Shown here: one piece after another, positions 17,286 to 56,617 of the stretch
How the letters are laid out: every line of letters begins with the position of its first letter
Numbering within the stretch: position 1 is the stretch's first letter
Source of the DNA: Roseobacter sp.
GTDB taxonomy: Bacteria > Pseudomonadota > Alphaproteobacteria > Rhodobacterales > Rhodobacteraceae
DNA: 64,000 nt
Reading direction: 5' to 3'
Assembly (NCBI GenBank): GCA_024636495.1
Contig: JAGXGZ010000047.1
Span: 1-64,000, forward strand
Notes under the pieces: model-generated
Databases searched by the model: none
What the model was told of the DNA's origin: nothing
What the model saw: only the letters and a program-made list of their open reading frames with translations
Made by a program: the position numbers and the translations under genes

Positions 17286-17301
17286 ATGGTGAACCCAGCT
17301 G
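17286..17301 (+). repeat. attL: 16-bp duplicate of the tRNA-Arg 3' end
   Basis: ATGGTGAACCCAGCTG is identical to 56540-56555, where it covers the CCA, discriminator, acceptor stem and the first T-stem bases of tRNA-Arg(CCG). The direct orientation and the integrase next to the other copy fit an integrase-mediated duplication. Confidence 0.85.
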
Positions 17302-17881: not shown

Positions 17882-18946
17882 TCAAGCGTACGATTTGATG
17901 ACCTTTTCGATCACATCAGCGAATCTGTAGAGATCTGCGGGCCCAGCCACTTTGTGCTTCGCCTCATTTTTATCCACATCGAACAAACCCACATGACGGG
18001 TCGTTGCGGAGTTGAAGTACAAGCGGCAGATTGGCTTTCTATTGTTGTTATCCATCAAAATTGCACAGTAGCTTTTGGCATCACGGATAACAATTCTGTC
18101 CACAGGAACGTGACGAGCACCTATCGCTCGGACTATCATATGGGCCGAAATTTCCTCATCGGTAGTCACTATATCGTCTTCAGGAATTTCATCTGTCGCC
18201 AGCCCTTCTGGCTCCGAAGTCACCTTTTTCTCACCACTGAAAGCAACACCAAGTTTATCTTGGATCCTGTCTCGGATCACCTCATCCAATGCGGCTTGGA
18301 CTGCTGGACGCAGCTGCTCAGATACACTTTTTGTGATTGAGCCTTCATGAATTTGCCGACCGACCAATCGAATGAAATCTTCATCCGGATCGTCCAGCTG
18401 CTTCCGGAGGTAATTGGCTGCAGCACGGGTATATTTTAAGTTTGAGGCCGCTTCCACAATTTCATCTATAGCAAAGTTCGGCTTCTGGAATCGCGCCAGC
18501 TCTTCGACCTGATCTCGATCGAAGTTTTGGAAATCAAATTTGAAGAATGGCCGCTTGTCCATTTTGTTTGGTTCGTCTGTGTCTGAGAAAAACCAAGCCT
18601 CCCTCCCGTTTGTAAGAATCGCCAGACGAGCCTCGGTGACAGTGAAGTAACGGAAAAGCTGGTTGAACTGCGTATCCCCAAGCTTTGCGTTCACGGGCTT
18701 TGCCTCAATCAGCATCGCAATTTTGCCGTCAATCTTAACTGCAAAGTCGACCTTTTCCCCCTTCTTTGTACCGACATCAGCAATAAACTCGGGGATTACC
18801 TCATCAAGGTTGAAGACATCGAAGCCAAGTGTCTGCAAGAATGGAAGGATCACAGATGTCTTGGTCGCCTCTTCGGTGAGAGCCTGCCGCTCGGCAACCT
18901 TTGACCGGCTCGAAATCTGGGAAATACGATCAAAAAATTCGCTCAC
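17882..18946 (-). CDS. Stand-alone HsdR-N-like (PD-(D/E)xK) nuclease-domain protein
   Basis: The roughly 354-residue protein begins with a type I restriction HsdR N-terminal domain: LTEEATKTSVILPFLQTLGF, then KKGEKVDFAV and IAMLIEAKP, which supply the D...ExK nuclease residues (D67, E81, K83 from this start). The helicase/translocase part of HsdR is absent, and no HsdM or HsdS is near. The C-terminal ~130 residues (KSYCAILMDNNNRKPICRLYF) form the conserved domain seen in free-standing relatives. GTG 18946 follows GAGGAT; GTG 18961 and ATG 18955 are alternatives. A defence role is plausible but not shown. Confidence 0.8.
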   Translation of the reverse strand: MSEFFDRISQISSRSKVAERQALTEEATKTSVILPFLQTLGFDVFNLDEVIPEFIADVGTKKGEKVDFAVKIDGKIAMLIEAKPVNAKLGDTQFNQLFRYFTVTEARLAILTNGREAWFFSDTDEPNKMDKRPFFKFDFQNFDRDQVEELARFQKPNFAIDEIVEAASNLKYTRAAANYLRKQLDDPDEDFIRLVGRQIHEGSITKSVSEQLRPAVQAALDEVIRDRIQDKLGVAFSGEKKVTSEPEGLATDEIPEDDIVTTDEEISAHMIVRAIGARHVPVDRIVIRDAKSYCAILMDNNNRKPICRLYFNSATTRHVGLFDVDKNEAKHKVAGPADLYRFADVIEKVIKSYA

Positions 18947-18981
18947 GATGGCCATCCTCACAAAAAATAAGAAGCTTTATA

Positions 18982-19832: not shown

Positions 19833-20183
19833 TTGGCTGAAAACGAACCTTGGGACAGCAAAACGGCAACCATAAAAATCCGAGAGATGGCGTCGTCAAG
19901 AAAATTTGGCGTAGCTTACAAACTTCATGCAATGGAAAGGCTGGCTGAGCGGAACTTGATCATGTCTGACGTGTTATTCGTTCTAAGGAACGGGCTCATT
20001 CATAGCCAAGCCGTGGAATCAACCAGACCTGACTTTTACAAATATTCCGTTGAAAGCAGATCACCAAATAGCGGGGGACGAGAAGTAAGAGTTATTGTGA
20101 TCCCAGACTTGCCGAGATGCCAATTGAAGATTGTGACTGTGATGTGGGTCGATGAAACATCGACCAAAGCGGGTACAATGTGA
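19833..20183 (+). CDS. DUF4258-type toxin (RelE/MqsR-like fold)
   Basis: The 116-residue protein carries the DUF4258 hallmark H-x3-R-x3-R in YKLHAMERLAERNL (H32, R36, R40), followed by the strand pattern KYSVES...REVRVIVI...LKIVTVMWVD. DUF4258 members are toxins or toxin-like, related to RelE/MqsR mRNA interferases. It starts at TTG 19833 after AGGA. The HTH gene starts nine bases after its stop, a toxin-first order as in MqsRA. Confidence 0.75.
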   Translation: MAENEPWDSKTATIKIREMASSRKFGVAYKLHAMERLAERNLIMSDVLFVLRNGLIHSQAVESTRPDFYKYSVESRSPNSGGREVRVIVIPDLPRCQLKIVTVMWVDETSTKAGTM

Positions 20184-20192
20184 GGAAAGAAG

Positions 20193-20642
20193 ATGAAATA
20201 CCACTATACTGAATGTGGACTTAACAACGTAATTATTGAAGGTCTCAACGTCTTCCCCGATGACGAGGGTGATGATGTCGTGGAAATTCCATTCATCAAC
20301 GAACTTCACCTAGCAATTGCTTCTGGTATCGTCATGCACGATCAAGGGATCAGCGGAGCTGAACTCCGATTCCTGAGGAGTGAGATGGGTATGACACAAG
20401 CAGAGCTTGCTGCGCTGGTTCACAAAGACAAACAAACTGTCGGTCGTTGGGAGCGGGCTGAGTGGGAGATAGATAGCACCTCTGAGACGATTATTAGGAG
20501 GTTTGCGATCGAAAAACTCGACTTAGATGTAACAGACGGCATTGACGTTTTGTCTCAGAAAAGTGTTGCGACAGCTCACGAACAAACAATTTCTATTATT
20601 GCTAATGATAATAGTTACAGCCTAGCCCCCAAGGCTGCGTGA
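20193..20642 (+). CDS. HTH antitoxin/repressor partner of the DUF4258 toxin
   Basis: The 149-residue protein has an N-terminal segment (MKYHYTECGLNNVIIEG) typical of regulators paired with DUF4258 genes, and a central XRE-type helix-turn-helix (GMTQAELAALVHKDKQTVGRWE, about residues 69-90). The classic MqsA zinc CxxC pairs are missing. It is expected to bind both the toxin and the operon promoter. A perfect hairpin lies right after the stop. Confidence 0.78.
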   Translation: MKYHYTECGLNNVIIEGLNVFPDDEGDDVVEIPFINELHLAIASGIVMHDQGISGAELRFLRSEMGMTQAELAALVHKDKQTVGRWERAEWEIDSTSETIIRRFAIEKLDLDVTDGIDVLSQKSVATAHEQTISIIANDNSYSLAPKAA

Positions 20643-37184: not shown

Positions 37185-38495
37185 TTAGCCGGCTGTGCCC
37201 CAGGTCACGCCGGTCATGATGGACAGAGCCGCCAGATGACGCAGGCCGATGTCATGCTGCATAATCATGCGCATCAGGGTTTCGTCACGGCTGAAGGCTG
37301 CCTGCATGGTGCCGCTGGCATCCTTATAGGCCGCCTCTGTCGACATGGCGATTTCGATGCCCATGTGTTCGCCGACCATGACGTGCGCGGGGTGAACCAG
37401 CATGATTTCCGAAGCGATACCGCCACCGCCGAGGTTGTCCGGGATTTCGGTCGTGATGTGGACAGGCTTCTTGCGCAGCATGTTTTCGCCCATCTCGGGA
37501 TAGACCTTGTTGCCATTGCCGTCCCGCAGGTTGGTCAGGAACATCGCCGAGCGTGGCGACATGATCCAATGCGCCCCGGTGTAAACGATGTTGTTGTTGC
37601 CAAGGGCCAGCTCCATCGCGCCAAGATCGTTGTCGACCTTCTGGACATCAGGCACCGCCGTCATCGTCAAGATATGCGTGGCCTCAAACGGTGTGCCGAG
37701 GTGCTGGTAACGGAAGCCCTTTGGCTTGTATTCGGTACCGGCACCGCGCAGGAAGTGACGATCCTGAATTTGTGCGGCATCTTCGACGGCATCGTCGCGG
37801 ATCATCCGATCGACAGCCGTTGAGCTGGAGCGCAGCAGATCATTCGAGACCGGGATGATCCCGCTCAGCTTCTTCGCCGACAGTTTGACTTGGCCATATT
37901 CGTAGCCGGTTGCCGGCGCATCTTCCTGCTCGCCGCCATAACCGAAGTTCGCACCACTGACGCGGCGGTTGGTGGTCATGTTACCGTTCGGCATCGGCAC
38001 GATGCGCGGCCCCATTGCCGTCACGACGCTGACAGGGCGCAGCAGTTCAATCACTTCGGTCGATACGTCTTCGGGCACAAGGAAACCACCGGCGGTACCG
38101 GTGCTCATGTTCTGGTTGGCAAAGAGACCGCTGTCGCCGTTAGCTTCAGCCATCTGCTGCGCGACATAGTGATTGCCACCCGCTGCCGCGATCGTGCGGA
38201 CCATGCGGCCAAAGGTCAGACCCTTTTCGGCTGGTTTCGCAGGCGTGGTGCCAGCAACCGGCGGGGTGCTGCCGGGAAGTGGCTCAGGCGTGCGCGCAGC
38301 AGCAGCGCGGCGGCGCTCTAGATCTTCGAGGCGTGTCAGTTCCGTGGCCGCCTTGTCGTCCTGCGCTTTCAGCTCATCAAAGGCAGTCAGTTGCTCGGCG
38401 GTCATATCTTCACCATCGGGCACCTTTGCGAGCAGCGCATCCATCTGGTCGATAATACCCGCGCGGCGGGTTCTCAGCTCAAGGATTTTATCCAT
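37185..38495 (-). CDS. HK97-fold major capsid protein
   Basis: The 436-residue protein has an N-terminal coiled-coil delta domain (LRTRRAGIIDQMDALLAKVP, up to about residue 65), a Pro-rich linker near 70-95 where the protease likely cuts, and an HK97-type body (GGFLVPEDVSTEVIELLRPV and KLSGIIPVSNDLLRSSS). It is preceded by the S49 protease gene, the usual maturation enzyme. Confidence 0.92.
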   Translation of the reverse strand: MDKILELRTRRAGIIDQMDALLAKVPDGEDMTAEQLTAFDELKAQDDKAATELTRLEDLERRRAAAARTPEPLPGSTPPVAGTTPAKPAEKGLTFGRMVRTIAAAGGNHYVAQQMAEANGDSGLFANQNMSTGTAGGFLVPEDVSTEVIELLRPVSVVTAMGPRIVPMPNGNMTTNRRVSGANFGYGGEQEDAPATGYEYGQVKLSAKKLSGIIPVSNDLLRSSSTAVDRMIRDDAVEDAAQIQDRHFLRGAGTEYKPKGFRYQHLGTPFEATHILTMTAVPDVQKVDNDLGAMELALGNNNIVYTGAHWIMSPRSAMFLTNLRDGNGNKVYPEMGENMLRKKPVHITTEIPDNLGGGGIASEIMLVHPAHVMVGEHMGIEIAMSTEAAYKDASGTMQAAFSRDETLMRMIMQHDIGLRHLAALSIMTGVTWGTAG

Positions 38496-44912: not shown

Positions 44913-45563
44913 TCAGACCCTGCGAACAGTGCGCCCCATCCAACCCTGTTCAGCCGCGTGCCGAAGCGCTCGTGTAATCGATGCTTCGAACTGTGGCATG
45001 CGCCGCTGACCGTGGTGGTTTTCCAGCAGCCAAGCATCCAGCCGCTCAATCAGAACCCGATCGGCACAGACGGCCTTATCACAGCCAACGTCGCGCATTG
45101 CTTCGGACAGACGCTGCTGGCGCTGATAGACCGCCTTGCCTTCACTACTGGCCTTGCGAACATCGCGGCGGTCCAGCGCATCGCGCACCACCTCAGTCAC
45201 GACAGGATGTACCAGTCGCACTTCGCCGTTGTCGCAAAGCGCCTGCGTCCAGTTGTGCAGCGGTGTGATCTTGCGCGCGCAAAGCTGACGCCAACGCTCG
45301 ATGGTGATGCCGAGCGCCTTTGCAAGCAACTCTTCCGATACTGGCAATGTGCCGACTGGCGTTTCGTCGTGCGCTTCGCAGAACAGCAGGAACCCGAACC
45401 AGCCAACCTCAGGCTCTGCCAGCTGACGGAATTGGCTCTTGCGCCAGCGCTTAAGGTTCCACTGGATGAAATAGTGACTGTCGAGCCGTTCGTCTGCCGA
45501 TACCGTGTGTTCAGGCAGCGCGCTTGAATCGACAAGCTGGAGTATTGGAAGCGGGCCGCTCAT
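44913..45563 (-). CDS. Putative phage replication protein
   Basis: The product has 216 residues from ATG 45563, which overlaps the upstream TGA. It contains YFIQWNLKRWRKSQFRQLAE, a pattern like the N-terminal winged-helix domain of DUF1376-type replication proteins, then LAKALGITIERWRQLCARKI, and ends in a helical basic region (ASITRALRHAAEQGWMGRTV). The role rests on this resemblance and on the repeats just downstream. It could instead be a regulator. Confidence 0.5.
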   Translation of the reverse strand: MSGPLPILQLVDSSALPEHTVSADERLDSHYFIQWNLKRWRKSQFRQLAEPEVGWFGFLLFCEAHDETPVGTLPVSEELLAKALGITIERWRQLCARKITPLHNWTQALCDNGEVRLVHPVVTEVVRDALDRRDVRKASSEGKAVYQRQQRLSEAMRDVGCDKAVCADRVLIERLDAWLLENHHGQRRMPQFEASITRALRHAAEQGWMGRTVRRV

Positions 45564-46477
45564 CAAGCACCGGCCCGCTGGCGCAGGATCCTCAGCAACC
45601 GCGACTGATGACCGATATCACCGACCTTTGTGTTTAGAGCCCGGAACCGCGAAACGATGTCGCCCACCTCGACCCCCAGCTCATCCGCCACCAGCGCAGC
45701 AGCTTTGCCAGTCGTCAGACCTGTCAGGATCTCGAAGTCCTTTTCGGCTGACCAGCCACCGGAATAATCCAAAGCATCCAGATGGGTGACAACGGCACGA
45801 TCATCAGCGCATAGCTTGGGCAGTTCCTGCGCAGGCTCTGGCAGAGGTGCAGGTTTGGGCATCGCTTTGGCTTCTAGCTTCACTGGCGCTGGCGTAGCGG
45901 CCACAGGGCGCGGCTTTTTCGCCCGCTCTACCTTGATCGCCTTGATCTTCATACCCACGGAGATCTTGCTCCGATTGACCATTTCAGCAATCTCATCACG
46001 GCTTTTCCCGGCATCCAGCGCCTTGGCAATGCACTCGATCTCATTTTCGGTGAACGGCCCAACCTTGTACTCACGCGGCCCCGCCTTCATCGCTTTAGCA
46101 CCACTGCGGGGTTTCTTGATCGGCTCGGCAGCCTTGCGACGCGCAAAGGGCGGCGCTGAAGGCAGATCGTCAGCCTCAGCGGGTGTTGTCTCAGGCAACG
46201 GTGCAGCATCAATCGCAGGCGCTGGTTCAACCGCCTGCGGTACCAGCGACTGCACCACCGGCAACACAAAGCTGACCGAGACGCGCGCACTGGCATCGAA
46301 CGTCACATCGGCATTGAGGCCAATGCGCTCAAGATCATCCTTAGCAGTGCGCAGGAAAATCAGGACATCATCGACCTGCTTCACCGCGCTTTCGAATTTG
46401 GCGAGATCGGCCTTGATGACTTCGAGAGAGGCACCGCCCTGCTCTCGCATTCCCTGAAGCTGTTCCAGAACGTTCAT
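45563..46477 (-). CDS. Phage protein with a GcrA/Myb-like DNA-binding segment
   Basis: The 304-residue protein has an N-terminal helical region, a Pro/Ala-rich linker (about 80-125), then GPFTENEIECIAKALDAGKS followed by a helix-turn-helix-like SRDEIAEMVNRSKISVGMKI. After a second Pro/Ala linker there is a C-terminal helical domain (FEILTGLTTGKAAALVADEL). The central part resembles GcrA- or Myb-type DNA-binding helices. It may link phage gene expression to the methyltransferase encoded just upstream, but this is inference. Confidence 0.55.
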   Translation of the reverse strand: MNVLEQLQGMREQGGASLEVIKADLAKFESAVKQVDDVLIFLRTAKDDLERIGLNADVTFDASARVSVSFVLPVVQSLVPQAVEPAPAIDAAPLPETTPAEADDLPSAPPFARRKAAEPIKKPRSGAKAMKAGPREYKVGPFTENEIECIAKALDAGKSRDEIAEMVNRSKISVGMKIKAIKVERAKKPRPVAATPAPVKLEAKAMPKPAPLPEPAQELPKLCADDRAVVTHLDALDYSGGWSAEKDFEILTGLTTGKAAALVADELGVEVGDIVSRFRALNTKVGDIGHQSRLLRILRQRAGA

Positions 46478-47202: not shown

Positions 47203-47696
47203 CAGCTACGCCCCGCCTTTGCAGCGGCCTGCGCTGACAATCGCATCGCAGCAGACAAAATACGCTGACGGCCCTCTTTTGATTTATACCGCAGCGCATG
47301 CGAGATAAATCCTGGCTTAAAGCCAAGCGCGCGATCTGCCTCGCGCATGGAGACAAAAAACATCCCACCGATCTCGAAAGGCTTGGCGTTGTTCAAAACA
47401 CGCCTTGGGGCCGTGCCGAAGCGATCCTCGCACCCCCGAGATATCGACGTATAAATGGCAGATTTTGTTACTTTGAAATGCTTGGCAGCCGCCGCCGCAC
47501 TTGGAAAGTCCTTACCACCAATACGCACAGGCATCGGCTCAACACCACCATGGCCTGTTCCGACCCGATGCAAAGTGCCATTTCGTACCGCGTGCCTCAC
47601 CGTCTCGGGGCTGACCCCATGGGCAGCCCCAGCCGACCGCAAATCCGCATATTTAACACCACGAATTTCGATGGTGATGTCGCGCTTTATTGGCAT
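47202..47696 (-). CDS. DNA-binding protein with NUMOD-like repeats
   Basis: The 164-residue protein has two or three repeats of a small helix-turn-helix unit: YADLRSAGAAHGVSPETVRH, then FPSAAAAAKHFKVTKSAIYT, then FVSMREADRALGFKPGFISH. This resembles NUMOD1-type DNA-binding modules of intron and phage endonucleases, but no nuclease domain is attached. ATG 47696 overlaps the upstream stop. Confidence 0.6.
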   Translation of the reverse strand: MPIKRDITIEIRGVKYADLRSAGAAHGVSPETVRHAVRNGTLHRVGTGHGGVEPMPVRIGGKDFPSAAAAAKHFKVTKSAIYTSISRGCEDRFGTAPRRVLNNAKPFEIGGMFFVSMREADRALGFKPGFISHALRYKSKEGRQRILSAAMRLSAQAAAKAGRS

Positions 47697-48172
47697 CAAC
47701 GCATCTCACCACAACCGCGACCGACCTCGCCGGGCTTGTCCGCGCCCACAAAATCCTTCCAGTGACGCCAACCCTGATGGCACAGGAAACCCCACTGGCG
47801 AACGCGCGGTCCTGTAATAAAAACGGTAAGCGCCGGCGCATCCCGAACCATCAGCCGATGGGCAAATTTTGCATCCCGGTAGACCCACTGCATCGGCTCA
47901 ATCACTCGCAAATGCCGTTCCTGCGAGCCCGCTTGATACTCCTCAAGCAAGCCCGCCTCGACCATCAGCGACAAGCTGGCCCACGGGTGATCATGCAGTG
48001 GGCGGTCATCATCATCCCGCAAAACGCGATGCACATAGACGTTGAAAATGCGATTGCGCGGAATCCAGAACCAGCGAAGCATGTACGGATCATCAGACGA
48101 ACCGATAATGAAGTCGGGTGCGCGGCGTTTCGTAAGCGCAACAGCGCGCTTTGCAATGAGGCGGGAGATCAT
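47696..48172 (-). CDS. Cupin-fold-like phage protein
   Basis: The 158-residue protein has a cupin-like pattern: HDHPWASLSLMVEAGLLEEY (two His and a Glu in the first half) and YRDAKFAHRLMVRDAPALTV (a third His). ATG 48172 overlaps the upstream stop. Small cupin proteins of this type occur in many proteobacterial phages, with no known function. Confidence 0.6.
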   Translation of the reverse strand: MISRLIAKRAVALTKRRAPDFIIGSSDDPYMLRWFWIPRNRIFNVYVHRVLRDDDDRPLHDHPWASLSLMVEAGLLEEYQAGSQERHLRVIEPMQWVYRDAKFAHRLMVRDAPALTVFITGPRVRQWGFLCHQGWRHWKDFVGADKPGEVGRGCGEMR

Positions 48173-48447
48173 CGGATTGCACCCGTCATTAGAGCCATCG
48201 CTTCGCGATTGCTGTACCCGTCCAATGCATTGTCGGCGCTTGCAGCGTATGAATTTCCACCAGCCCCGCGATAATGCGCCTTTGTCGTGCGCAGCCGCCC
48301 GCCCCAATTCTTCAACTTGATCACAGCCCGCACGGTGGCAACCGGTTCATCCACCGCCTCGGCAACCTCCGCCAGGGTGCAATCCCATGCCAGCGGCTTG
48401 CAGAGCTGCCATATACGAAAGGCTATTGCGTGGCCGCGTGGGGTCAT
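48169..48447 (-). CDS. Small winged-helix-like phage protein
   Basis: The 92-residue protein has a possible helix-turn-helix (CTLAEVAEAVDEPVATVRAV) followed by a basic wing (KNWGGRLRTTKAHYRG). It overlaps its neighbours by four bases on each side (ATGA-type). A regulatory or replication role is likely but not specific. Confidence 0.6.
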   Translation of the reverse strand: MTPRGHAIAFRIWQLCKPLAWDCTLAEVAEAVDEPVATVRAVIKLKNWGGRLRTTKAHYRGAGGNSYAASADNALDGYSNREAMALMTGAIR

Positions 48448-48581
48448 CTGTCATCCCCCTGAGAGTTTGCAGAAAGTTTTCCAAGCCGACGGGCAGCCGA
48501 AGCTGCCCACCAGTCGCCAACCGCACCAAGGTGGTTAGCAACGATGATTTCCTTGATGATGACCCAGCGAACAAACCGCAT
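48444..48581 (-). CDS. 45-residue phage ORF
   Basis: The ATG at 48581 follows AGAGGTCG and overlaps the upstream TAA; the stop overlaps the next ATG. The product begins MRFVRWVIIKEIIVANHLG. It is amphipathic and helical with no family. Tight stop-start overlaps on both sides support its reality. Confidence 0.55.
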   Translation of the reverse strand: MRFVRWVIIKEIIVANHLGAVGDWWAASAARRLGKLSANSQGDDR

Positions 48582-48841
48582 TACGCGACCTCTTTCAGTT
48601 GCACCGTGGCCTGTTTGGGAAACTGCGCATAGGCATAGCCCACGGCAAACCCCGACGGCGCGTGACTGCCGACCCACCACTTCTTGGCGGTCGATCCGTC
48701 CACCCCGAACACCATGGCGGCCTCTTCCGGGCTTTCAAAGTTTGCGCGGATGAAATCCGACCACCGCGCCGCGAATTGCTGGCGATAGGTCAGAACCTTG
48801 TGACGCTGGGAAAACTTTCCTGAAAACTTTAATGCAGACAT
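48581..48841 (-). CDS. Small HTH phage regulator (CII/replication type)
   Basis: The 86-residue protein contains FESPEEAAMVFGVDGSTAKK, a helix-turn-helix-like stretch. It is the second gene after Cro and in the position of lambda cII/O. ATG 48841 is preferred over the longer frame to 48925, which would read through the cro-cII gap. Confidence 0.55.
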   Translation of the reverse strand: MSALKFSGKFSQRHKVLTYRQQFAARWSDFIRANFESPEEAAMVFGVDGSTAKKWWVGSHAPSGFAVGYAYAQFPKQATVQLKEVA

Positions 48842-48921
48842 ACCTGTACTCCGATCACATGTTGGGAACTGTGAAGTGCAAACATTTTGAACATTGGGAA
48901 GGTGACGAGGGGATGCAGCGG

Positions 48922-49128
48922 TCATGCTGCGTCCTCTTGATTTTCTGGAATGGGATGCGCGGCCATGTAGCTGCGCACTTTATCCGTGGTCCGATGGGTT
49001 GCGGTCCCGCCCGCTTCCCATTTTGCCCAGGTCGATCCGTTCCCCGCGTCTGCACGCTGGATGATCGTGGTGGGGAGAACACCTATCGCAGCCGCATAGG
49101 CCCGAACTTCTGCCATGAATTGTTCCAT
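48922..49128 (-). CDS. Cro-like small DNA-binding protein
   Basis: The 68-residue protein is divergent from the CI-like gene, with an 86-base operator region between them. AAAIGVLPTTIIQRADAGNG and STWAKWEAGGTATHRTTDKV form a helix-turn-helix-like layout in which the basic, polar second helix fits an XRE fold. It is the first gene of the minus-strand early operon. Confidence 0.65.
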   Translation of the reverse strand: MEQFMAEVRAYAAAIGVLPTTIIQRADAGNGSTWAKWEAGGTATHRTTDKVRSYMAAHPIPENQEDAA

Positions 49129-49139
49129 AGGGTCCGATG

Positions 49140-49180
49140 TAGGTATTTAGTTCTACCTAAGTCAAGAACTTTGTACCTAT
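49140..49180. promoter_or_regulatory. Operator pair between cI and cro
   Basis: TAGGTATTTAGTTCTA at 49140-49155 (with a TACCTA dyad arm to 49159) and, on the other strand, ATAGGTACAAAGTTCTT at 49164-49180. Both match the two sites at 50541 and 50569. Their position between divergent regulator genes makes them the probable CI/Cro operators. Confidence 0.75.
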
Positions 49181-49214
49181 GGAGAGAGATTCCTATTGTC
49201 GGCATAAATAAGGA

Positions 49215-49577
49215 ATGAATGATCTTGGCATCACTGACCCATTCTTGAAACGTTTGCGGCGCCGGATCGACGAAGATCCGACGTTGACCGAGGCTGGATT
49301 AGCTAAAAAAGCTGGGCTTTCGGATAGCGCAATCCGCCAATATTTCTCAAAACCCAACAGAACGCCAAGGGTTGAAAATGCACGCAAGATCTGCGCCGCA
49401 CTTGGCACGACTCTCGAAGAGTTCATGTCCGAGGCTCAAACCCCAGAAGAAAAAGAGATTGTTCGCCTAACACTTGCGCTACCCGATCACTTGCGCCGCC
49501 AGCTTCTAAGCTATGCAAAAGGGCTTGTTGATGCGTCGGAGAGCGTGTCTCGACCAGATGATGCAACAGATCAATGA
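49215..49577 (+). CDS. CI-like phage repressor (XRE family)
   Basis: The 120-residue protein has an N-terminal helix-turn-helix (LTEAGLAKKAGLSDSAIRQY, then LGTTLEEFMSEA) and a short helical C-terminus. There is no LexA-type protease domain, so induction would not occur by RecA-stimulated self-cleavage; another signal or an antirepressor would be needed. It is the only plus-strand gene at the switch, facing away from Cro. Confidence 0.8.
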   Translation: MNDLGITDPFLKRLRRRIDEDPTLTEAGLAKKAGLSDSAIRQYFSKPNRTPRVENARKICAALGTTLEEFMSEAQTPEEKEIVRLTLALPDHLRRQLLSYAKGLVDASESVSRPDDATDQ

Positions 49578-49660
49578 TTTCCTTGTCCAGCATAATCCAC
49601 CCCTCACCTTAGAGAACAAAACCGGAACAAAACCGCAATACAACTGAAAGTAGGATTATT

Positions 49661-49852
49661 ATGTCAGATAATGACAAGTCGAAACGTAATTTACCCCCAT
49701 CGCCCAAGTACGAGCAGCGCAGCGCGCAACCGATGCGCGTATCGCCCATTCAATCACCGCAACGCATCGTCACCGGCGGCCAACAGCCTTTGCGAGACGT
49801 GCAGACAGGTCAGACCACTTCCCCGAAACCCAAAAAGCCGAAGGAAGATTAG
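49661..49852 (+). CDS. Small Pro/Gln/Lys-rich ORF
   Basis: The 63-residue hydrophilic product (MSDNDKSKRNLPPSPKYEQR) has no predicted fold. GTAGGA lies seven bases before ATG 49661. Its 3' end overlaps the convergent membrane-protein gene by 83 bases, which lowers confidence. It may be a disordered regulator expressed with the repressor. Confidence 0.4.
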   Translation: MSDNDKSKRNLPPSPKYEQRSAQPMRVSPIQSPQRIVTGGQQPLRDVQTGQTTSPKPKKPKED

Positions 49853-50462
49853 GATCGACGCGCACTTCGATCCGCTTGATTTCTTCTTTTGAAATATAGG
49901 TCACGAGCAAACCGTATTCCGCTGAAAAAATATCCGTTCGCACCAGTTCCTTACCGGTAGGCGATACCTCATCCGTAACTGCCATTAGAACATCACCTGA
50001 AGGGCCTAGTGAAAGCTTTGACATCGAAGGCTTGCTGATTTCAGGGGCCAAGTCTGGGTCAAGATGGAGTTCGCGCCCGTCTTTTAGGTAGACCCTCACT
50101 TCCGTGGCCTCGTGATCATCCATCGCTGCACAAAGTGTGTCCCACGCCGAGGCTTGGCCATCTTCCTTGTGCACGCCTAGTGCCTTCATGGCCCCGTACC
50201 ACCAGCCCCTGTAGACGCTGCGCCAGCCGACCCCGAGAACAAGAGGCACCATTACAGCCGCGCCGAATTGGACCGCCAATCCCCACCCGCCCGCCAGCTC
50301 AAAAAACATCAGCGATATACCGCTGAATATCCCCGTGATTATGATAGCATCCTGCGCCCGGTGATTGTGCCGCAACCCGGCATAGGAAGCAGCATAGGCA
50401 GCGAAGCCCGCTGCAATCGAGATCTGAATTTGTAGCGGCAGTGCAAGTAGATCTGGTGACAT
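49770..50462 (-). CDS. DUF6338-like membrane protein in the lysogeny region
   Basis: The 230-residue protein has three N-terminal hydrophobic helices (about 5-25, 38-58 and 62-85), then a cytoplasmic domain with EVRVYLKDGRELHLDPDL and TDIFSAEYGLLVTYISKEEI, resembling the DUF6338 family. It lies between cI and the second operator, on the opposite strand to both, where lysogenic conversion or superinfection-exclusion genes are often found. Expression in the lysogen is likely. The function is unknown. Confidence 0.65.
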   Translation of the reverse strand: MSPDLLALPLQIQISIAAGFAAYAASYAGLRHNHRAQDAIIITGIFSGISLMFFELAGGWGLAVQFGAAVMVPLVLGVGWRSVYRGWWYGAMKALGVHKEDGQASAWDTLCAAMDDHEATEVRVYLKDGRELHLDPDLAPEISKPSMSKLSLGPSGDVLMAVTDEVSPTGKELVRTDIFSAEYGLLVTYISKEEIKRIEVRVDPNLPSAFWVSGKWSDLSARLAKAVGRR

Positions 50463-50540
50463 TGGGTATCCTTTGAGATCAGCCTAGCCGACAATTATGG
50501 CGAGGACAGCCCCACGGATAACACAATCGACACAATGCAA

Positions 50541-50610
50541 ATAGGTATTAAGTTCTATTTTAGTTGACATAGGTATTTTGTTCTAATACCGATAGCCTCA
50601 CCTAAAGGAG
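50541..50610 (+). promoter_or_regulatory. Operator-controlled early promoter
   Basis: ATAGGTATTAAGTTCTA (50541-50557) and ATAGGTATTTTGTTCTA (50569-50585) flank a TTGACA -35 box at 50564-50569; a -10 box is not clear (TAATAC follows at a short spacing). A perfect AAGGAGG at 50604-50610 precedes ATG 50617. The repressor should silence this promoter in the lysogen. Confidence 0.75.
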
Positions 50611-50616
50611 GCTGAC

Positions 50617-50880
50617 ATGCAAACACCCATCGACAAAGCAAAACACGTCGTCACCCACCCGCAGCACTTCGCGCGGGTTCCTGCGGTGCTGGCGATCAAC
50701 TGGGAACGGCTTAAGAACGCACGCGGCCAGACGGTCGATTACAATCGTATCGGCCCACCCGCCTACGTGATCGGCCCCGAATGCCCCGGCATCGCCGCCG
50801 CCCGCATGTCTCGCATCCCCGCCAAAGTCCGCGAGATCGCCAGAGCAAAGGGCTATGACATGCCGCCGAGTGCCGCATGA
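50617..50880 (+). CDS. Early phage protein, unknown
   Basis: The 87-residue basic protein is the first gene after the operator-controlled promoter and has the strongest ribosome binding site in the prophage. It contains VPAVLAINWERLKNARGQTV and ends in a helical basic stretch (IPAKVREIARAKGYDMPPSA). No family is known. Strong, immediate-early expression fits a host-takeover or anti-defence factor, but nothing in the sequence proves it. Confidence 0.6.
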   Translation: MQTPIDKAKHVVTHPQHFARVPAVLAINWERLKNARGQTVDYNRIGPPAYVIGPECPGIAAARMSRIPAKVREIARAKGYDMPPSAA

Positions 50881-51206
50881 TGCACGAACGCCTCGCCACC
50901 TTTGTTTCGGGCCTCGACAAGATCGATGCCGAGGACACAGAAACGCTGAAAGACGCGTTCATGAACGAAGTGATCGAGAACGGCGGGACATACGATCCAC
51001 CGGACGGCGCGGGACGCTCCTATTTTGAGATCAGCCTGCACGATGTGACCGCCACCGGCGCATCCGAACTGCTGGCCATCCGCAATTGGCGCATCGCCGC
51101 CACCGCACGACTGCTCAACCCCGACGGCCGCGATGTCGAGGCTGATGGTTTCATTACCATGCACCCGCCCTGCGACCTGCTGACAGACACGGGGGTCAGC
51201 ACATGA
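50877..51206 (+). CDS. Early phage protein, unknown
   Basis: The 109-residue acidic protein overlaps its neighbours by four bases. It contains DKIDAEDTETLKDAFMNEVI and ASELLAIRNWRIAATARLLN. It appears soluble. No motif is recognised. Confidence 0.6.
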   Translation: MMHERLATFVSGLDKIDAEDTETLKDAFMNEVIENGGTYDPPDGAGRSYFEISLHDVTATGASELLAIRNWRIAATARLLNPDGRDVEADGFITMHPPCDLLTDTGVST

Positions 51207-51385
51207 AAACCGTTGCCCAACTCTCCGCGACCGAAATCAGAGACGCATTGCGCGAATACGTAGAACGTAAAACAGGCGGCAAGGTCATCCAGAATGGCGT
51301 TCTTATCAGTGCGCGGCGCGCCGATGGAAACGACCAGCGCGAGCGCGTCGAACTGACCACAAAGATCACCTACGAGACCAGCTAG
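51203..51385 (+). CDS. Early phage protein, 60 residues, unknown
   Basis: The small alpha/beta-looking protein (SATEIRDALREYVERKTGGK) begins on the stop of the previous gene (ATGA). It is last in a three-gene unit closed by a tandem-hairpin terminator. Confidence 0.6.
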   Translation: MKTVAQLSATEIRDALREYVERKTGGKVIQNGVLISARRADGNDQRERVELTTKITYETS

Positions 51386-51399
51386 CCCCCGTTACCTGC

Positions 51400-51461
51400 T
51401 GCGGCACACCTCCTCCCGTGCCGCACACTTGCCGGCGGGCCTCAATGCCCGCCGGTCTTTT
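51400..51461 (+). terminator. Tandem hairpins ending the first early unit
   Basis: The first stem is TGCGGCAC/GTGCCGCA (51400-51407/51418-51425). The second is CCGGCGGGC/GCCCGCCGG (51432-51440/51447-51455), followed by TCTTTT. The second is a standard Rho-independent terminator. Genes downstream need read-through or antitermination. Confidence 0.88.
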
Positions 51462-51483
51462 CCAAATCAAATGGATATGCGTC

Positions 51484-51726
51484 ATGGACATCTTTCGAGA
51501 TCACGACAAAGAAACGCCGCCCAACCGGATTGAACGGTGCCAGCAATGGCCCGAATGCGGCTGCATCAGCGGCCACTCAAAGGCGTCCTGCACCAACATC
51601 ACGCACCGCCAGTCACGCGGGACGCATGGTGCCGCGATCATCGTCCCGATCGCCACCGCCTTTGCCCTAGCCTTTGCCTACGGCCTGACCCAACTGGCAG
51701 CCCTCACGATCGGCATGCTGCCATGA
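51484..51726 (+). CDS. Small phage protein with a C-terminal membrane helix
   Basis: The 80-residue protein has an N-terminal Cys/His-rich part (CQQWPECGCISGHSKASCTN), possibly zinc-binding, and one C-terminal transmembrane helix (AIIVPIATAFALAFAYGLTQ). ATG 51484 is chosen because the upstream frame crosses the terminator. Function unknown. Confidence 0.55.
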   Translation: MDIFRDHDKETPPNRIERCQQWPECGCISGHSKASCTNITHRQSRGTHGAAIIVPIATAFALAFAYGLTQLAALTIGMLP

Positions 51727-51998
51727 CCTCCAAAATCCGCCAGCGCCTGGACGACATGCAGCCCGCGCAACAGGCGGGCATCCTATGCAACGACCCAAGG
51801 TTCCAGCGCTTCGCCGCGATGCGGTGCGGCCTGTCCGGTCAGCAGTTCAGCGCCAGCGCATCCGCCGAATATCTGCGCGACTGCTGCCAGATCGACAGCC
51901 GCACCGCGCTGAACACAAGCGGCCCCGCCCAATCCAAATTCGCCGCCCTGCGCACAGACTTCGACGCATGGACCGGCAAGATCGCCAGCCCCAGATAA
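51723..51998 (+). CDS. Small phage protein, unknown
   Basis: The 91-residue protein begins at ATG 51723, overlapping the previous stop (ATGA). It contains MQPAQQAGILCNDPRFQRFA and AEYLRDCCQIDSRTALNT. The longer frame from 51537 is a shadow of the upstream gene. It may be single-strand DNA or replication related, but no motif shows this. Confidence 0.55.
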   Translation: MTSKIRQRLDDMQPAQQAGILCNDPRFQRFAAMRCGLSGQQFSASASAEYLRDCCQIDSRTALNTSGPAQSKFAALRTDFDAWTGKIASPR

Positions 51999-52015
51999 AA
52001 AGGAATCCCAAAGTG

Positions 52016-52438
52016 ATGGCAAAGAAAACACCTGGCACCGAGATTGCCAAACCCGCCCCGCATGATCCGTACAAAATGCGCACCCTTGAACAGATCCTTG
52101 CCCTGTTTGATGGCGGTGATTTCCTCGAAGAAGTCATGGACGGCCATAAGAAGCTTCAAATCGATCTTTTGGAGCACAAGGCAGAACACGGCACCAAGGG
52201 GTGTGGCGGTTCCATGACACTTCAGGTCAGCTATGCCCTTGGCAAATCCGGTGACGTCGCCATGGGCGCAACCGTCACCTTCAAAGCGCCGAAAAAGCCA
52301 CCCAGCAGCGCCGCAGCCTTCATCAACGATAACGGCGAACTGACGCTCTATAGCCCGTTCATGTCCCGCATGCATCAGCCCGTCCGCGATGTCAGCGACT
52401 ATGACCCGGACACAGGCGAAGTACGCGACACCGACTAA
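52016..52438 (+). CDS. Phage protein preceding DUF2303, unknown
   Basis: The 140-residue protein (ATG 52016 after AAAGGA) contains MRTLEQILALFDGGDFLEEV and HKAEHGTKGCGGSMTLQVSY. Genes of this type regularly precede DUF2303 genes in alphaproteobacterial phages and are probably recombination or replication accessory factors. Biochemistry is unknown. Confidence 0.6.
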   Translation: MAKKTPGTEIAKPAPHDPYKMRTLEQILALFDGGDFLEEVMDGHKKLQIDLLEHKAEHGTKGCGGSMTLQVSYALGKSGDVAMGATVTFKAPKKPPSSAAAFINDNGELTLYSPFMSRMHQPVRDVSDYDPDTGEVRDTD

Positions 52439-52462
52439 CCCAAACCGAAAAGGAGCCGAGAA

Positions 52463-53452
52463 ATGGCCGAAAAACCAATCTACACCATGGAAAACCCCGC
52501 ACAGACAATGCGCGATGTGATGGAAGAAATCGGGGGCAGTGAACATATCGCCGCACCAACTGATTTTGATCTGACCAAAGCGCACGTGATAACCATTCCA
52601 GAGAAACGCACGGTCGCAGACCTCACGAAGTATCACCGTGACGCGGCGGAATACCTGAAGCCGGCGCGCCGCAAGGGCACTGCCCGCTTTGACGATCTGG
52701 AAAGCCTCATCATGTGGGCGAACCGCTTCAAAGGCGAAACCTCGGCACTGTTTGCAAAACCCGACATGACCGCCCCGACACTGAACTGCATCGCAGACTA
52801 TCACGCACAGGGCCCAGTAACGGTGAACACCCAGACAGGCGACCCTACCGCGATGCACTGCAATCATCGCGCCATCTACAATTTCCCGCTTTCCGACGAA
52901 TGGAAGGCATGGATGGCAATTTCAGGCGCTGCGCTGGACAAAGATGAAATGGGCGAATTCATCGAAGTGCAGGCAAAAGACATCATGGACCCCACGCCAG
53001 CAGTCCTGCGCGGTCAGCCGTCGGACAACAATGAAAAGTGGGAAAACAAGCTGATTGAAACGGCCCATCAGATTGAAGGCCGGTATGGCCAATTGACCCA
53101 GCTGCTGGCGATGTCCAAGAAGTTTCAGGTTTTCGAGACAAGCGACCTGAAAGTCGCCACAAACCGCGATACAGGCGAGGCGGAGATCCAGTTCCTTAAC
53201 GAACACAAGGACGCAGACGGGCAACCGCTGAAGATTCCGAACCTGATCATCATTGCGATCCCGGTGTTCCTGGGCGGCGCGCTGTACCGGATGCCCGTCC
53301 GCTTCCGGTATCGGAAGTCAGGCGCATCGGTGAAATTCATCCTGTCGATCTACAACCCCGAAAAGGCATTCGAAGCTTCATTCGAGGAGGCAATCACAGT
53401 CGCCAAAGAACAAACAGATCTTCCATTGTTTCTTGGCACTCCGGAATCCTGA
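52463..53452 (+). CDS. DUF2303 (YfdQ-like) family protein
   Basis: The 329-residue protein matches the DUF2303 layout: AHVITIPEKRTVADLTKYHR near residue 35, ADYHAQGPVTVNTQTGDPTA, and a C-terminal beta-rich domain (YRMPVRFRYRKSGASVKFIL). The family is common next to recombination genes in phages but uncharacterised. A perfect hairpin follows its stop. Confidence 0.82.
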   Translation: MAEKPIYTMENPAQTMRDVMEEIGGSEHIAAPTDFDLTKAHVITIPEKRTVADLTKYHRDAAEYLKPARRKGTARFDDLESLIMWANRFKGETSALFAKPDMTAPTLNCIADYHAQGPVTVNTQTGDPTAMHCNHRAIYNFPLSDEWKAWMAISGAALDKDEMGEFIEVQAKDIMDPTPAVLRGQPSDNNEKWENKLIETAHQIEGRYGQLTQLLAMSKKFQVFETSDLKVATNRDTGEAEIQFLNEHKDADGQPLKIPNLIIIAIPVFLGGALYRMPVRFRYRKSGASVKFILSIYNPEKAFEASFEEAITVAKEQTDLPLFLGTPES

Positions 53453-53463
53453 TTTCTCTTTCT

Positions 53464-53483
53464 GGCCCCCTGACATGGGGGCC
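53464..53483 (+). terminator. Hairpin after the DUF2303 gene
   Basis: GGCCCCC and GGGGGCC form a perfect 7-bp stem with a 6-nt loop (53464-53470/53477-53483). There is no T-run, so it is a possible terminator or RNA-stabilising hairpin. It separates the phage early genes from the cargo that follows. Confidence 0.5.
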
Positions 53484-53513
53484 ATCGACAGAAACCAGAC
53501 TGGGAGAACTCCA

Positions 53514-53645
53514 ATGTCGAAGAAAAGCATGGCCGTGCCGCGCCAGCCCACGAGCGCGCCGGTCGAGCGTGAGAACAGTGAGGTGCAGGCTTTTATCTTT
53601 TCACACACAAGGATGGAGATAGCTTATGATCACTCAACCGCTTAA
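53514..53645 (+). CDS. 43-residue ORF overlapping the RelA/SpoT gene start
   Basis: ATG 53514 follows GGGAGAAC. The product (MSKKSMAVPRQPTSAPVERE) is short and partly disordered, and it overlaps the next ATG by 20 bases in another frame. It could be a leader peptide or a small antitoxin for the downstream gene, but evidence is limited to position and spacing. Confidence 0.4.
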   Translation: MSKKSMAVPRQPTSAPVERENSEVQAFIFSHTRMEIAYDHSTA

Positions 53646-54846
53646 TCTCGCGGCAATCCAAAAAAATTGCACTGAGGTATTTGATGTGTCCGACTTCCCG
53701 CGCCTTGAGTTTTCAAAGAAAGACGTTGTCCGCGCAGGCAGCTCACTCAAAGGGCGCATCCTGTGGACATCAGAGAACGAAGCAGAAATTCTTCGGGTTT
53801 TTCAGATCGCAAACAGCTGGCGTGCATCCCATGCATTTCCAATGCACAGAATGCGGGCTGAGCTTCATGGCCGCATGAGTGCGTTGAAGATCAGAGGGCT
53901 GACCGCCGCACGCCTAAAGCAAATGACCTCAATTCGGGGAAAACTAATCCGGATTAGCAGCAACCTTAGACAGTTGCAGGATCTTGGTGGCTGCCGAGCT
54001 GTCGTGCCCACCATAGCGGAAGCTAAAGTTTTAGCCGCTGAGATCGGTGAGAAATATCCACACTATTTGAAGCGTGAAGACGCATACATGGATTCGCCAC
54101 GGCCGAGCGGTTATCGGAGTCACCATCTGGTGTTTGCATTTACACCCCGCAATATCCACGAAACAGAGTACGAAGGTCGATTGATAGAAATTCAGATACG
54201 TAGTCGACTTCAGCATTCATGGGCGACAGCTGTCGAGGCTGTAGGTCTTTATCGTGGAGAAAACTTAAAGGCTGGTTACGGCAGCAAAGATTGGCTCCGC
54301 CTGTTTGAACTTATGTCTTTTGAATTTGCCCTGAGTGAAGGATGTGAATTTGCACAAGATGGGTCAAATGAAAGAGTTGCTGAGATTATTGATCTAAATA
54401 ATTCGTTGAATGCAGCGCAAACTCTAGACACGCTTAGTCATGCAGTTCTTGGCCTTGATAGAATTGAGCGTGATCGCAATCACAAGCCAAAATATTGCCT
54501 GATTACCTATGACCATCAAAACCGAAAAGTTGGGGTAAAATATCTCGATGGTCCTTCAAATATTGGGTCGGCTCTTGAACGCGGTAATGCAAATAGCGAC
54601 GACGAAAATAGATATAGCGCTGTGGTAGTCGAGTTAGACAAAATTGAAAATCTAAAGAGCGCATACCCTAATTACTTTGGAGATGTTCAACTTTTCAAGT
54701 CAGCGCTGTCAGACGTAGTAAGTGGAAAGCCTCCAAGAGAGTATTCCTTACCTCCAATTGAACGTGTGCCACCACCACCCAAGGAGATCCCTGACGATTC
54801 ATGGCTTCGATATCCGAACCGTCGCAATCGTCGTTGGGATGAGTAG
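53626..54846 (+). CDS. RelA/SpoT-domain protein, toxSAS/CapRel-like candidate
   Basis: The 406-residue protein has a single RelA/SpoT nucleotidyltransferase domain at about 55-210: SWRASHAFP (64-72), RLKQMTSIRGKLIR (96-109), QDLGGCRAVV (118-127), SPRPSGYRSHHLVF (157-170) and IEIQIRSRLQHSWA (187-200). This retains the (p)ppGpp-synthetase-type GYRS and EIQIR motifs. There is no HD hydrolase, TGS or ACT domain. The ~200-residue C-terminal extension includes KSAYPNYFGDVQLF and a Pro-rich, Arg-rich end. Small alarmone synthetase toxins (toxSAS) and fused CapRel anti-phage sensors have this build. The gene is AT-richer than its phage neighbours, indicating cargo. Confidence 0.85.
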   Translation: MITQPLNLAAIQKNCTEVFDVSDFPRLEFSKKDVVRAGSSLKGRILWTSENEAEILRVFQIANSWRASHAFPMHRMRAELHGRMSALKIRGLTAARLKQMTSIRGKLIRISSNLRQLQDLGGCRAVVPTIAEAKVLAAEIGEKYPHYLKREDAYMDSPRPSGYRSHHLVFAFTPRNIHETEYEGRLIEIQIRSRLQHSWATAVEAVGLYRGENLKAGYGSKDWLRLFELMSFEFALSEGCEFAQDGSNERVAEIIDLNNSLNAAQTLDTLSHAVLGLDRIERDRNHKPKYCLITYDHQNRKVGVKYLDGPSNIGSALERGNANSDDENRYSAVVVELDKIENLKSAYPNYFGDVQLFKSALSDVVSGKPPREYSLPPIERVPPPPKEIPDDSWLRYPNRRNRRWDE

Positions 54847-54849
54847 AAA

Positions 54850-55230
54850 ATGACTAAGTCGCCGTTATTTCACGATGATTGGTTTTGTCGGCCCATACGC
54901 ATCCAGCTGCAGCGCACCAAAGGATGGCGCATGCCGACCAACACAGTGAACGTTGCGCGTGGGCCCGGTCGCGAATGGGGAAACCCTTGGATCATTGGCA
55001 ACAAACGTTGCGGGCGCGACGCACTTGGAAATTATCAGGAAGAGCTGATCAAAGACGCCGAAACAGCGGTGCACTTCTTTTCGGAAATGCTTGAATACGA
55101 ACTGCGGCGATACCCCAGCAACGATGAAATCCGCGCCGAGCTGCGCGGCAAGAACCTCGCCTGCTGGTGCAAGCTGGATGCGCCCTGCCATGCAGACGTT
55201 CTGCTGCGAATTGCGAACGAGGACACCTGA
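54850..55230 (+). CDS. DUF4326 family protein
   Basis: The 126-residue protein shows the DUF4326 core: IRIQLQRTKGWRMPTNTVNV, then WGNPWIIG and LACWCKLDAPCHADVLLRIA with its conserved Cys/His. The family is frequent in phages and of unknown function. It begins four bases after the RelA/SpoT-domain gene and abuts the excisionase-like gene, so the three genes may be co-expressed. Confidence 0.78.
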   Translation: MTKSPLFHDDWFCRPIRIQLQRTKGWRMPTNTVNVARGPGREWGNPWIIGNKRCGRDALGNYQEELIKDAETAVHFFSEMLEYELRRYPSNDEIRAELRGKNLACWCKLDAPCHADVLLRIANEDT

Positions 55231-55233
55231 CCC

Positions 55234-55455
55234 ATGCCAGTCACCCTTGATTTTGCCCCAAGGCTGATGCCCGCACCCCAGGCAGCACACTATATAGGTG
55301 TGTCAGCCAGCACGTTGCGAACCCTGCCGATCCCACGGAAAGAGAACGGCACCAAGCGCCTCTATGACAAACGCGACCTTGACGACTACGTTGACGCGCT
55401 GCCCTATGAAGGCCAGACAGGGGAAAACACATGCGACGCGGTATTCAGCGATTGA
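55234..55455 (+). CDS. Excisionase-like (AlpA/MerR-type) HTH protein
   Basis: The 73-residue protein has MPAPQAAHYIGVSASTLRTL, a winged-helix excisionase pattern, then KRLYDKRDLDDYVDAL, the typical second half. It overlaps the integrase start by 25 bases. It is expected to steer the integrase towards excision. Confidence 0.78.
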   Translation: MPVTLDFAPRLMPAPQAAHYIGVSASTLRTLPIPRKENGTKRLYDKRDLDDYVDALPYEGQTGENTCDAVFSD

Positions 55456-56510
55456 AGGGCATCAAGGTCATCACAAAGCCGAACGGCAACCGGTATGTCT
55501 ATCGCCGGGTCGGATCCTCTCTGATACCTCTGCCAGACCTGCCAGAAAACCACCCGGCGTTCCTTGCAGCCTATGCAGCTGCTGGAGACGTAGAACCCAA
55601 ATTCAAAAGCAAGCACAAGACAGGATCGATCGCAGCACTCTGCGAGGCCTATCTGGGATCTGGCGCATTCCAGAAGAACGCAGCAAGCACCCGCAATGTC
55701 CGTCGTCTGATCGTGGATCAGATCAGCCAAAAACGTGGCACCGGCATGCTGAAGGATCTTAGACCAGACCACGTCCGCAAGGACGTCCGAAGCCTGACAC
55801 CAGGTGCCGCGTCCAACAGGCTCAAGGCATGGCGGGCAATCCTTTCGTTCGCCGTCGACGAAGGGATGATCGAGGCGAATCCGGCGCGCGACGTCAAAGC
55901 GCCGGCCAGCGTGAGCGTGTCACGCCACCAGTGGACGGAAGACGAGATCAAGCAATTCAGAAAGCACTGGAAGATCGGCACACCCGAGCGCACCGCGATG
56001 GAGGTGATCTACTGGACCGGCGCGCGATGTGTGGACGCTGTCCGGCTTGGCACGCAGATGGTCCAAGGCGGCTGGCTATCATTCATCCAGGTGAAGACAG
56101 GCGGGCCCGCCACCTGCCCAATCACAACCCTGCCGACGTGGTGCAGCGGCCTCGCCCCGGATCATGCACACTTTCTCGCCTGCCTGCCATCCGATCGAAT
56201 TCAGTGGATCGTGACGTCATCAGGAAAGCCGCGTAGCGTCAAAGGCCTGTCGCAATGGTTCAGCCGCATTGCCAGCGATGCCGGCCTGCCAGATCATTGC
56301 ACCGCCCACGGGCTTAGATCCGCACGGGCGGCCGCGCTGGCAGAAACAGGCGCAACAACCCACCAGATCGGCGCATGGACCGGGCACGCGAGCCTGTCCG
56401 AAATCGCCCACTACACGCGGGCAGCAGATCAGATCGGGATCCTGTCTGGGGGAGAACAAAGAACGAAAACGGGAAACCGCGTCCAAGAGTTTCCAAAATC
56501 CTCTAAATAA
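55431..56510 (+). CDS. int: Tyrosine-type site-specific integrase
   Basis: The 359-residue tyrosine recombinase carries the catalytic set: R199 (TGARCVDAV), K222 (VKTGG), H293 and R296 (AHGLRS), H319 (TGHAS) and Y328 (IAHYTRAAD). The N-terminal SAM-like core-binding domain lies around 68-160. The gene ends 30 bases from the 3' end of tRNA-Arg, consistent with integration there. ATG 55431 lies within the excisionase-like gene, so translation is coupled. Confidence 0.93.
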   Translation: MRRGIQRLKGIKVITKPNGNRYVYRRVGSSLIPLPDLPENHPAFLAAYAAAGDVEPKFKSKHKTGSIAALCEAYLGSGAFQKNAASTRNVRRLIVDQISQKRGTGMLKDLRPDHVRKDVRSLTPGAASNRLKAWRAILSFAVDEGMIEANPARDVKAPASVSVSRHQWTEDEIKQFRKHWKIGTPERTAMEVIYWTGARCVDAVRLGTQMVQGGWLSFIQVKTGGPATCPITTLPTWCSGLAPDHAHFLACLPSDRIQWIVTSSGKPRSVKGLSQWFSRIASDAGLPDHCTAHGLRSARAAALAETGATTHQIGAWTGHASLSEIAHYTRAADQIGILSGGEQRTKTGNRVQEFPKSSK

Positions 56511-56539: not shown

Positions 56540-56555
56540 ATGGTGAACCCAGCTG
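56540..56555 (+). repeat. attR: 3' end of tRNA-Arg, phage-chromosome junction
   Basis: Same 16 bases as attL at 17286-17301. Here the sequence continues as the intact tRNA, so this side holds the restored gene. Confidence 0.85.
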
Positions 56556-56617
56556 GATTCGAACCAGCGACCTCTGCCTTCGGAGGGCAGCGCTCTATCC
56601 AGCTGAGCTATGGGTCC
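56541..56617 (-). tRNA. tRNA-Arg (anticodon CCG), prophage attachment site
   Basis: The minus strand folds into a 77-nt tRNA. The acceptor GGACCCA pairs with TGGGTTC with one G-U, A is the discriminator and CCA is encoded. The anticodon loop CTCCGAA gives CCG (Arg). Its 3' end faces the integrase. Confidence 0.95.

Follow-up and report, generated by a model that had tools for sequence, protein, structure and literature searches.

A predicted CapRel-family fused toxin–antitoxin in a Roseobacter prophage, with a C-terminal tail specific to its clade

In characterized CapRel proteins, a pseudo-zinc-finger blocks the ATP site of the enzyme through a YXXY motif, a phage protein that binds the finger and the anchors opens the enzyme, and the opened enzyme pyrophosphorylates the 3′ ends of tRNA, whereupon translation stops (PMC9712102, PMC11578894, PMC11782079, PMC11559606). 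CapRel-SJ46 from Salmonella phage SJ46 (PDB entries 7ztb and 9erv; PMC9712102, PMC11578894) is, like the protein described here, encoded by a single ORF that comprises a toxSYNTH domain, anchors and a pseudo-zinc-finger. Its trigger is a capsid protein or Gp54. Activating changes are described at six interface positions (A77, R116, V338, L339, A341 and A351), A341K being one of them (PMC9712102). CapRel-Ebc from Enterobacter chengduensis is reported in PMC13423816 to be 70% identical to CapRel-SJ46 and to be triggered by T7 Gp0.4 bound to host FtsZ. FaRel2/ATfaRel2 is a tRNA-modifying toxSAS whose ATP site is blocked by a YXXY pseudo-zinc-finger (PDB entries 8pu1, 8pu3 and 8pu4; PMC11782079), an arrangement also proposed here. 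In this study, we analysed the window, the whole stretch of 64,000 nucleotides at the start of contig JAGXGZ010000047.1 of Roseobacter sp. (assembly GCA_024636495.1), in which one ORF had been predicted from the letters to encode a toxSAS- or CapRel-type protein. The CapRel-type build is backed by sequence, predicted fold, phylogeny and residue-level mapping; the architecture, key residues, predicted fold, prophage setting and phylogeny of the ORF are established below.

The gene within its prophage

The locus comprises the following features.

17286–17301, + strand: left att core copy, 16 bp, repeat of ATGGTGAACCCAGCTG
37185–38495, − strand: major capsid protein of the prophage (Pfam Phage_capsid)
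53463–53484, + strand: G+C-rich hairpin between the DUF2303 gene and the CapRel ORF, upstream of the latter
53626–54846, + strand: predicted CapRel-family fused toxin–antitoxin ORF, intact, ATG start, 406 codons (406 aa)
54850–55230, + strand: DUF4326 gene, beginning 3 nt past the CapRel stop and carrying the CWCKLDAPCHADVLL motif
55234–55455: 73-aa ORF between the DUF4326 gene and the integrase gene
55431–56510, + strand: tyrosine integrase of the prophage
56540–56555, + strand: right att core ATGGTGAACCCAGCTG, 16-bp repeat, overlapping the 3′ end of tRNA-Arg(CCG) at 56541–56617 (− strand)

The att repeats at 17286 and 56540 bound a prophage of approximately 39.3 kb that carries genes for terminase, portal, protease, major capsid, tape measure, repressor and integrase, and the CapRel gene lies within this element of phage genes, as had been proposed. 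Its G+C content is 47.0%, against 56.5% for the prophage, and drops to 43.4% in 54276–54846, so that the gene is indeed AT-richer than the phage genes around it. The hairpin noticed ahead of the gene is also real and strong (z −3.2 for 53450–53520), though it is followed by no T-run and the terminator scan makes no call there; a site scan gave no sigma-70-type promoter-like site directly upstream of the ORF. Of the proposed location next to the integrase, proximity stands but adjacency does not, the DUF4326 gene and the 73-aa ORF intervening. The identified packaging, head and tail genes are read leftwards and the repressor, CapRel and integrase genes rightwards; an orientation opposite to that of the lytic genes would suit expression in the lysogen.

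The DUF4326 gene is probably co-transcribed with the CapRel gene. As a partner gene it was rejected: among the frames of the compared loci, many of which include only part of their surroundings, and with own-genome copies left out, its only match at E 1e-4 was L001 (IMGVR_UViG_3300033553_000827, IMG/VR), a copy of the same stretch with 7830 bp 100% identical to window positions 47626–55455. L001 is likewise the only match among those frames to a 43-codon ORF (53514–53645, + strand), which is preceded by a ribosome-binding-like GGGAG, overlaps the start of the CapRel ORF and could couple CapRel translation. The start codon itself is uncertain. GTG at 53686 is a candidate alternative that, on reading the sequence, has GAGG 8 nt upstream; in the alignment it falls at the ATG with which the three nearest homologues begin, would give 386 amino acids and may be the real start, the 20 residues ahead of it having an AlphaFold pLDDT of ∼54–61.

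Two further observations concern the left side of the prophage. A GC-poor stretch adjoining the left att site carries a restriction-type endonuclease gene (17882–18961, − strand; HSDR_N; phrog_4225 endonuclease, 5.2e-104), which has no PADLOC match and is a candidate for a second cargo or defence gene. At 19833–20642 (+ strand) a DUF4258 gene and, immediately after it, a helix-turn-helix gene have the layout of a toxin–antitoxin pair.

Domains and key residues

The Pfam RelA_SpoT domain covers residues 96–210 (E 4.1e-17; 62.9 bits against a cut-off of 27), and the GYRS and EIQIR motifs lie at 162–165 and 188–192. Hydrolase, TGS and ACT domains are absent from the Pfam matches up to E 1, the sole other row for the ORF being Zot, below its cut-off. 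Pfam and the motif positions thus confirm a single synthetase-type domain with both motifs and without hydrolase, TGS or ACT domains, as originally read. The parts of the protein, assigned from Pfam, alignment and model, are as follows.

53713–54270, + strand: toxSYNTH (RelA/SpoT-type pyrophosphokinase) domain, residues ∼30–215, from Pfam and mapping to CapRel-SJ46
53911, 53995, 54112 and 54187–54195, + strand: toxSYNTH residues R96, R124, G-loop Y163 and E188/Q190, respectively
54271–54486, + strand: anchor-1 helices, residues ∼216–287 (model helices 221–237, 247–261, 263–273 and 275–279; alignment to 7ztb/9erv)
54487–54633, + strand: pseudo-zinc-finger, predicted antitoxin/sensor, residues ∼288–336 (strands 290–296 and 301–307, helix 310–322, strand 330–336)
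54634–54723, + strand: anchor-2, residues 337–366, with the putative autoinhibitory YXXY motif Y347-P-N-Y350 (54664–54675), from alignment and model

Residues R96, G122, R124, Y163, E188 and Q190 are invariant across 65 sequences, in which position 347 is Y in 59 and F in six and position 350 is Y in 58, F in six and L in one. In the alignment, R79, R116, Y155, Y352 and Y355 of CapRel-SJ46 correspond to R96, R124, Y163, Y347 and Y350. The six CapRel-SJ46 interface positions named above are identical here in four cases; L339 is conservatively replaced by V334, and A341 is E336, which is strongly different. The structural check against CapRel came out positively, the predicted fold aligning to 7ztb through residue 367. 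The pseudo-zinc-finger has strand–strand–helix–strand topology in the model, with one cysteine only in residues 288–366, and is among the fastest-changing regions of the protein. AlphaFold confidence drops to a pLDDT of ∼63 in 271–290 and is 56 in the YXXY block (341–350), and because the model is unsure around this motif the closed state is a prediction.

The C-terminal region had been thought a possible new type of sensor or antitoxin. This idea must be given up, since residues ∼216–366 match the CapRel anchors and the pseudo-zinc-finger with its YXXY motif, which rules out a new C-terminal domain; only the last 40 residues are without a CapRel-SJ46 counterpart.

Relatives and the clade-specific tail

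The three next homologues after L001 (L002, L003 and L004) share 66–71% identity with the ORF in the alignment. L002 (IMGVR_UViG_2788500467_000002) is a related phage with a 66% identical CapRel and with relatives of window genes near 43–48 kb and 51.5 kb. When 330 prophage frames of the window were compared, the CapRel gene's own frame being left out, approximately 12 matched L002 frames at E 1e-4, a number that includes overlapping or opposite frames; the top match (44916–45617, − strand) has 51% identity over 217 residues. L003 and L004 matched the window only in frames opposite the CapRel gene itself and, judged by eye, their CapRel genes lie beside glmU- and glmS-like frames (L003) and phage-like genes (L004). 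A comparison of 13 chosen neighbours had given no match in L002–L004; the resulting view that all of the nearest homologues have unrelated surroundings is ruled out by the several prophage genes shared with L002. With L002 in a related phage and L003 and L004 elsewhere, the gene therefore moves with this type of phage and is present in other settings as well.

Matches were found in 9 of 295 family genomes at E 1e-20 and, at E 1e-15, in 4 of 385 class genomes and 13 of 398 phylum genomes (each set drawn from a larger group, with the genome under study included); a second protein with the Pfam RelA_SpoT domain occurs in 3 of 36 genus genomes, again with this genome counted. Among viral contigs 192 stretches matched, 166 of which encode a relative, and 80 of these relatives were kept. 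The named members of the clade described below (L003, L004, L008, L009 and L010) are alphaproteobacteria, and the licensed part of PubMed Central yielded no literature linking CapRel to Alphaproteobacteria, or to prophage together with Roseobacter. Split relatives, in two reading frames, are seen in Escherichia phage vB_EcoM-673R5 (L013, 4992–6091) and in a Bradyrhizobium plasmid (L010, 5875–7118).

The part of the ORF beyond the CapRel-SJ46 plan is the following.

54724–54843, + strand: clade-specific C-terminal tail, residues 367–406, with a Pro-rich linker, DDSWLR (390–395) and RRNRRW (399–404)

Beyond YXXYF, CapRel-SJ46 ends after 17 residues, whereas the window protein extends for 55. In a tree of 84 proteins built with the tails excluded, the window protein falls in a clade of 29 with support 100/100, the bootstrap not being fully settled and eight near copies being left out of the 84 rows; 19 of the 29 sampled members come from viral contigs. 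The tail motif [STGDVQ]W[LIFWT], scored more than 16 residues after YXXYF, is present in 22 of 29 proteins inside the clade and in 0 of 62 outside it (1 of 63 when motif-bearing L085, a near copy of L055 that was absent from the clade list, is counted as outside). Identical proteins were taken once in this count, and L006 and L015 (window copies) and L013, L014, L065, L107, L109 and L116 (partial or not CapRel) were dropped beforehand. Any W at all in that region was seen in 2 of the 62 outside proteins. With a looser pattern in which F is also allowed, 24 of 84 rows bear the motif, with six changes on the tree and one bearer (L111) outside the clade. Shuffling the tails 2000 times gave a mean of 2.1 and a maximum of nine motif bearers against the 22 observed; as the pattern was written after the tails had been viewed, this demonstrates order in the tails and not an unbiased probability. 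Seven clade members are without the motif (L009, L105, L017, L029, L033, L037 and L053), and two of these, L009 from a Mesorhizobium plasmid and L105, are without such a tail, which is therefore not essential everywhere.

A further W or Y is found in 20 of the 22 motif tails, and the residues after the motif are mostly basic (net charge 0 to +8, median +4), typical endings being DDSWLRYPNRRNRRWDE, DLSWLKDWGKKKG and DFSWLRDYRTKRR. Among the window protein, L002 and L003, with dS mostly saturated, dN is 0.11–0.17 in the tail (389–406, an estimate from 18 codons), 0.18–0.24 in the toxin region, 0.38–0.56 in anchor-1 and 0.36–0.64 in the pseudo-zinc-finger. The tail is thus as tightly constrained as the enzyme, with the sensor diverging meanwhile; on these 18 codons, this would favour a conserved partner over a phage-sensing role. 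Its pLDDT is ∼51–61 in the window protein and ∼50 in L036, which has a short linker; these low values in both models give no tail docked on the enzyme, without speaking against docking as such. The D-L-S-W-L-K version may resemble sliding-clamp-binding peptides, an identity that we do not claim because the usual leading glutamine is missing. No such CapRel tail was found described in the titles and abstract openings listed from the licensed part of PubMed Central, and no characterized member of this clade was found in the literature examined.

We would guess that this tail serves as a flexible handle for some conserved partner, be it the enzyme itself, tRNA or a host protein, and that it does not sense phage. 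A more specific reading, which we offer tentatively and regard as doubtful, is that the Trp/Arg tail gives one CapRel clade a second control module with no part in sensing, a tethered peptide docking on a conserved partner (tRNA, the closed state of the enzyme or a host protein attacked by phage), so that the clade would guard a host component through a dedicated peptide and not through the variable sensor face, much as CapRel-Ebc guards FtsZ. The well-supported clade with a conserved tail absent from CapRel-SJ46 is the new detail here. Binding of tRNA or a host protein would mean an extra layer of control on one of the best-understood phage-sensing toxins; a tail that is a spare latch would show how autoinhibition can be tuned.

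Proposed function and comparison with known systems

Every part needed for the CapRel mechanism is present in the ORF, which is very probably a CapRel that combines toxin–antitoxin and phage sensor in one polypeptide as prophage cargo, a self-inhibited tRNA pyrophosphokinase opened by a phage protein. By analogy with characterized CapRels, from which its autoinhibition, tRNA target and phage triggering are taken, the pseudo-zinc-finger would fold back at rest, with Y347 and Y350 lodged between R96 and R124 and plugging the pocket for ATP, the pyrophosphate donor. Binding of a protein made by the phage, perhaps joined by one from the host, to the pseudo-zinc-finger and anchors would open the enzyme, which would then pyrophosphorylate tRNA 3′-CCA ends and halt translation; the infected cell would make no phage, and the prophage and the host lineage would be protected from superinfection. 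The trigger is not inferable from the family, and the capsid is not claimed as such, because CapRel-SJ46 and CapRel-Ebc, although reported to be 70% identical, sense unrelated triggers (PMC13423816). Moreover, with a major capsid protein gene present in the same prophage, capsid sensing by its CapRel would need self-tolerance.

The RelA_SpoT domain is shared with housekeeping small alarmone synthetases of the RelQ/RelP kind that make (p)ppGpp, and in NCBIfam the ORF weakly matches YjbM (33.8 bits, the cut-off being 320) and long RSH models. The Pfam, NCBIfam and structure-match evidence nevertheless rejects both a housekeeping synthetase and a long RSH; RelQ and RelP are stand-alone proteins of ∼200–230 aa without an antitoxin domain, a description that the ORF does not fit, and such a role is hardly credible. 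A fused toxSAS that targets metabolism by producing (pp)pApp and depleting ATP, in the manner of FaRel and Tas1, would have the same toxSYNTH fold, from which alone the substrate is not readable; we consider this activity, in place of tRNA modification, unlikely. A relic that the prophage passively carries along, either inactive or without a role in defence, could explain the AT-richness, the lack of a promoter-like site just upstream and the split or shortened copies among relatives (L010 and L013; L009 and L105), but the ORF is intact with all named catalytic and autoinhibitory residues, and dN is low against the mostly saturated dS among the window protein, L002 and L003, which makes a relic highly improbable.

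The CapRel reading assigns this divergent prophage gene securely to a known family and does away with the notion that its C-terminal domain is new; tests can therefore be aimed at once at Y163, at Y347/Y350 and at trigger screens. The PADLOC model PDC-S33, a candidate family, and the unnamed PHROG phrog_4773 both cover residues ∼26–365, with the tail outside both matches, and neither has a stated function. PDC-S33 also covers CapRel-SJ46 and three further relatives tried, so that its candidate label is probably resolvable to CapRel; no literature on PDC-S33 was found in the licensed part of PubMed Central.

In bicistronic toxSASs of the FaRel2 and PhRel type the antitoxin is a separate neighbouring ORF, whereas here it would lie within the same ORF and the downstream gene is the DUF4326 gene. 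CapRel-Ebc belongs by its description (PMC13423816) to the same family as the ORF and, with its reported 70% identity, to the lineage of CapRel-SJ46. CapRel-SJ46 and the ORF have the same active-site and YXXY residues and the same predicted fold, and both are borne by a phage or prophage; they differ in overall sequence (∼27% identity), particularly in the pseudo-zinc-finger and anchor-1, and CapRel-SJ46 is without the 40-residue C-terminal tail. As judged from sequence and model, the ORF is a CapRel of ordinary plan with a divergent sequence and one clade-specific tail.
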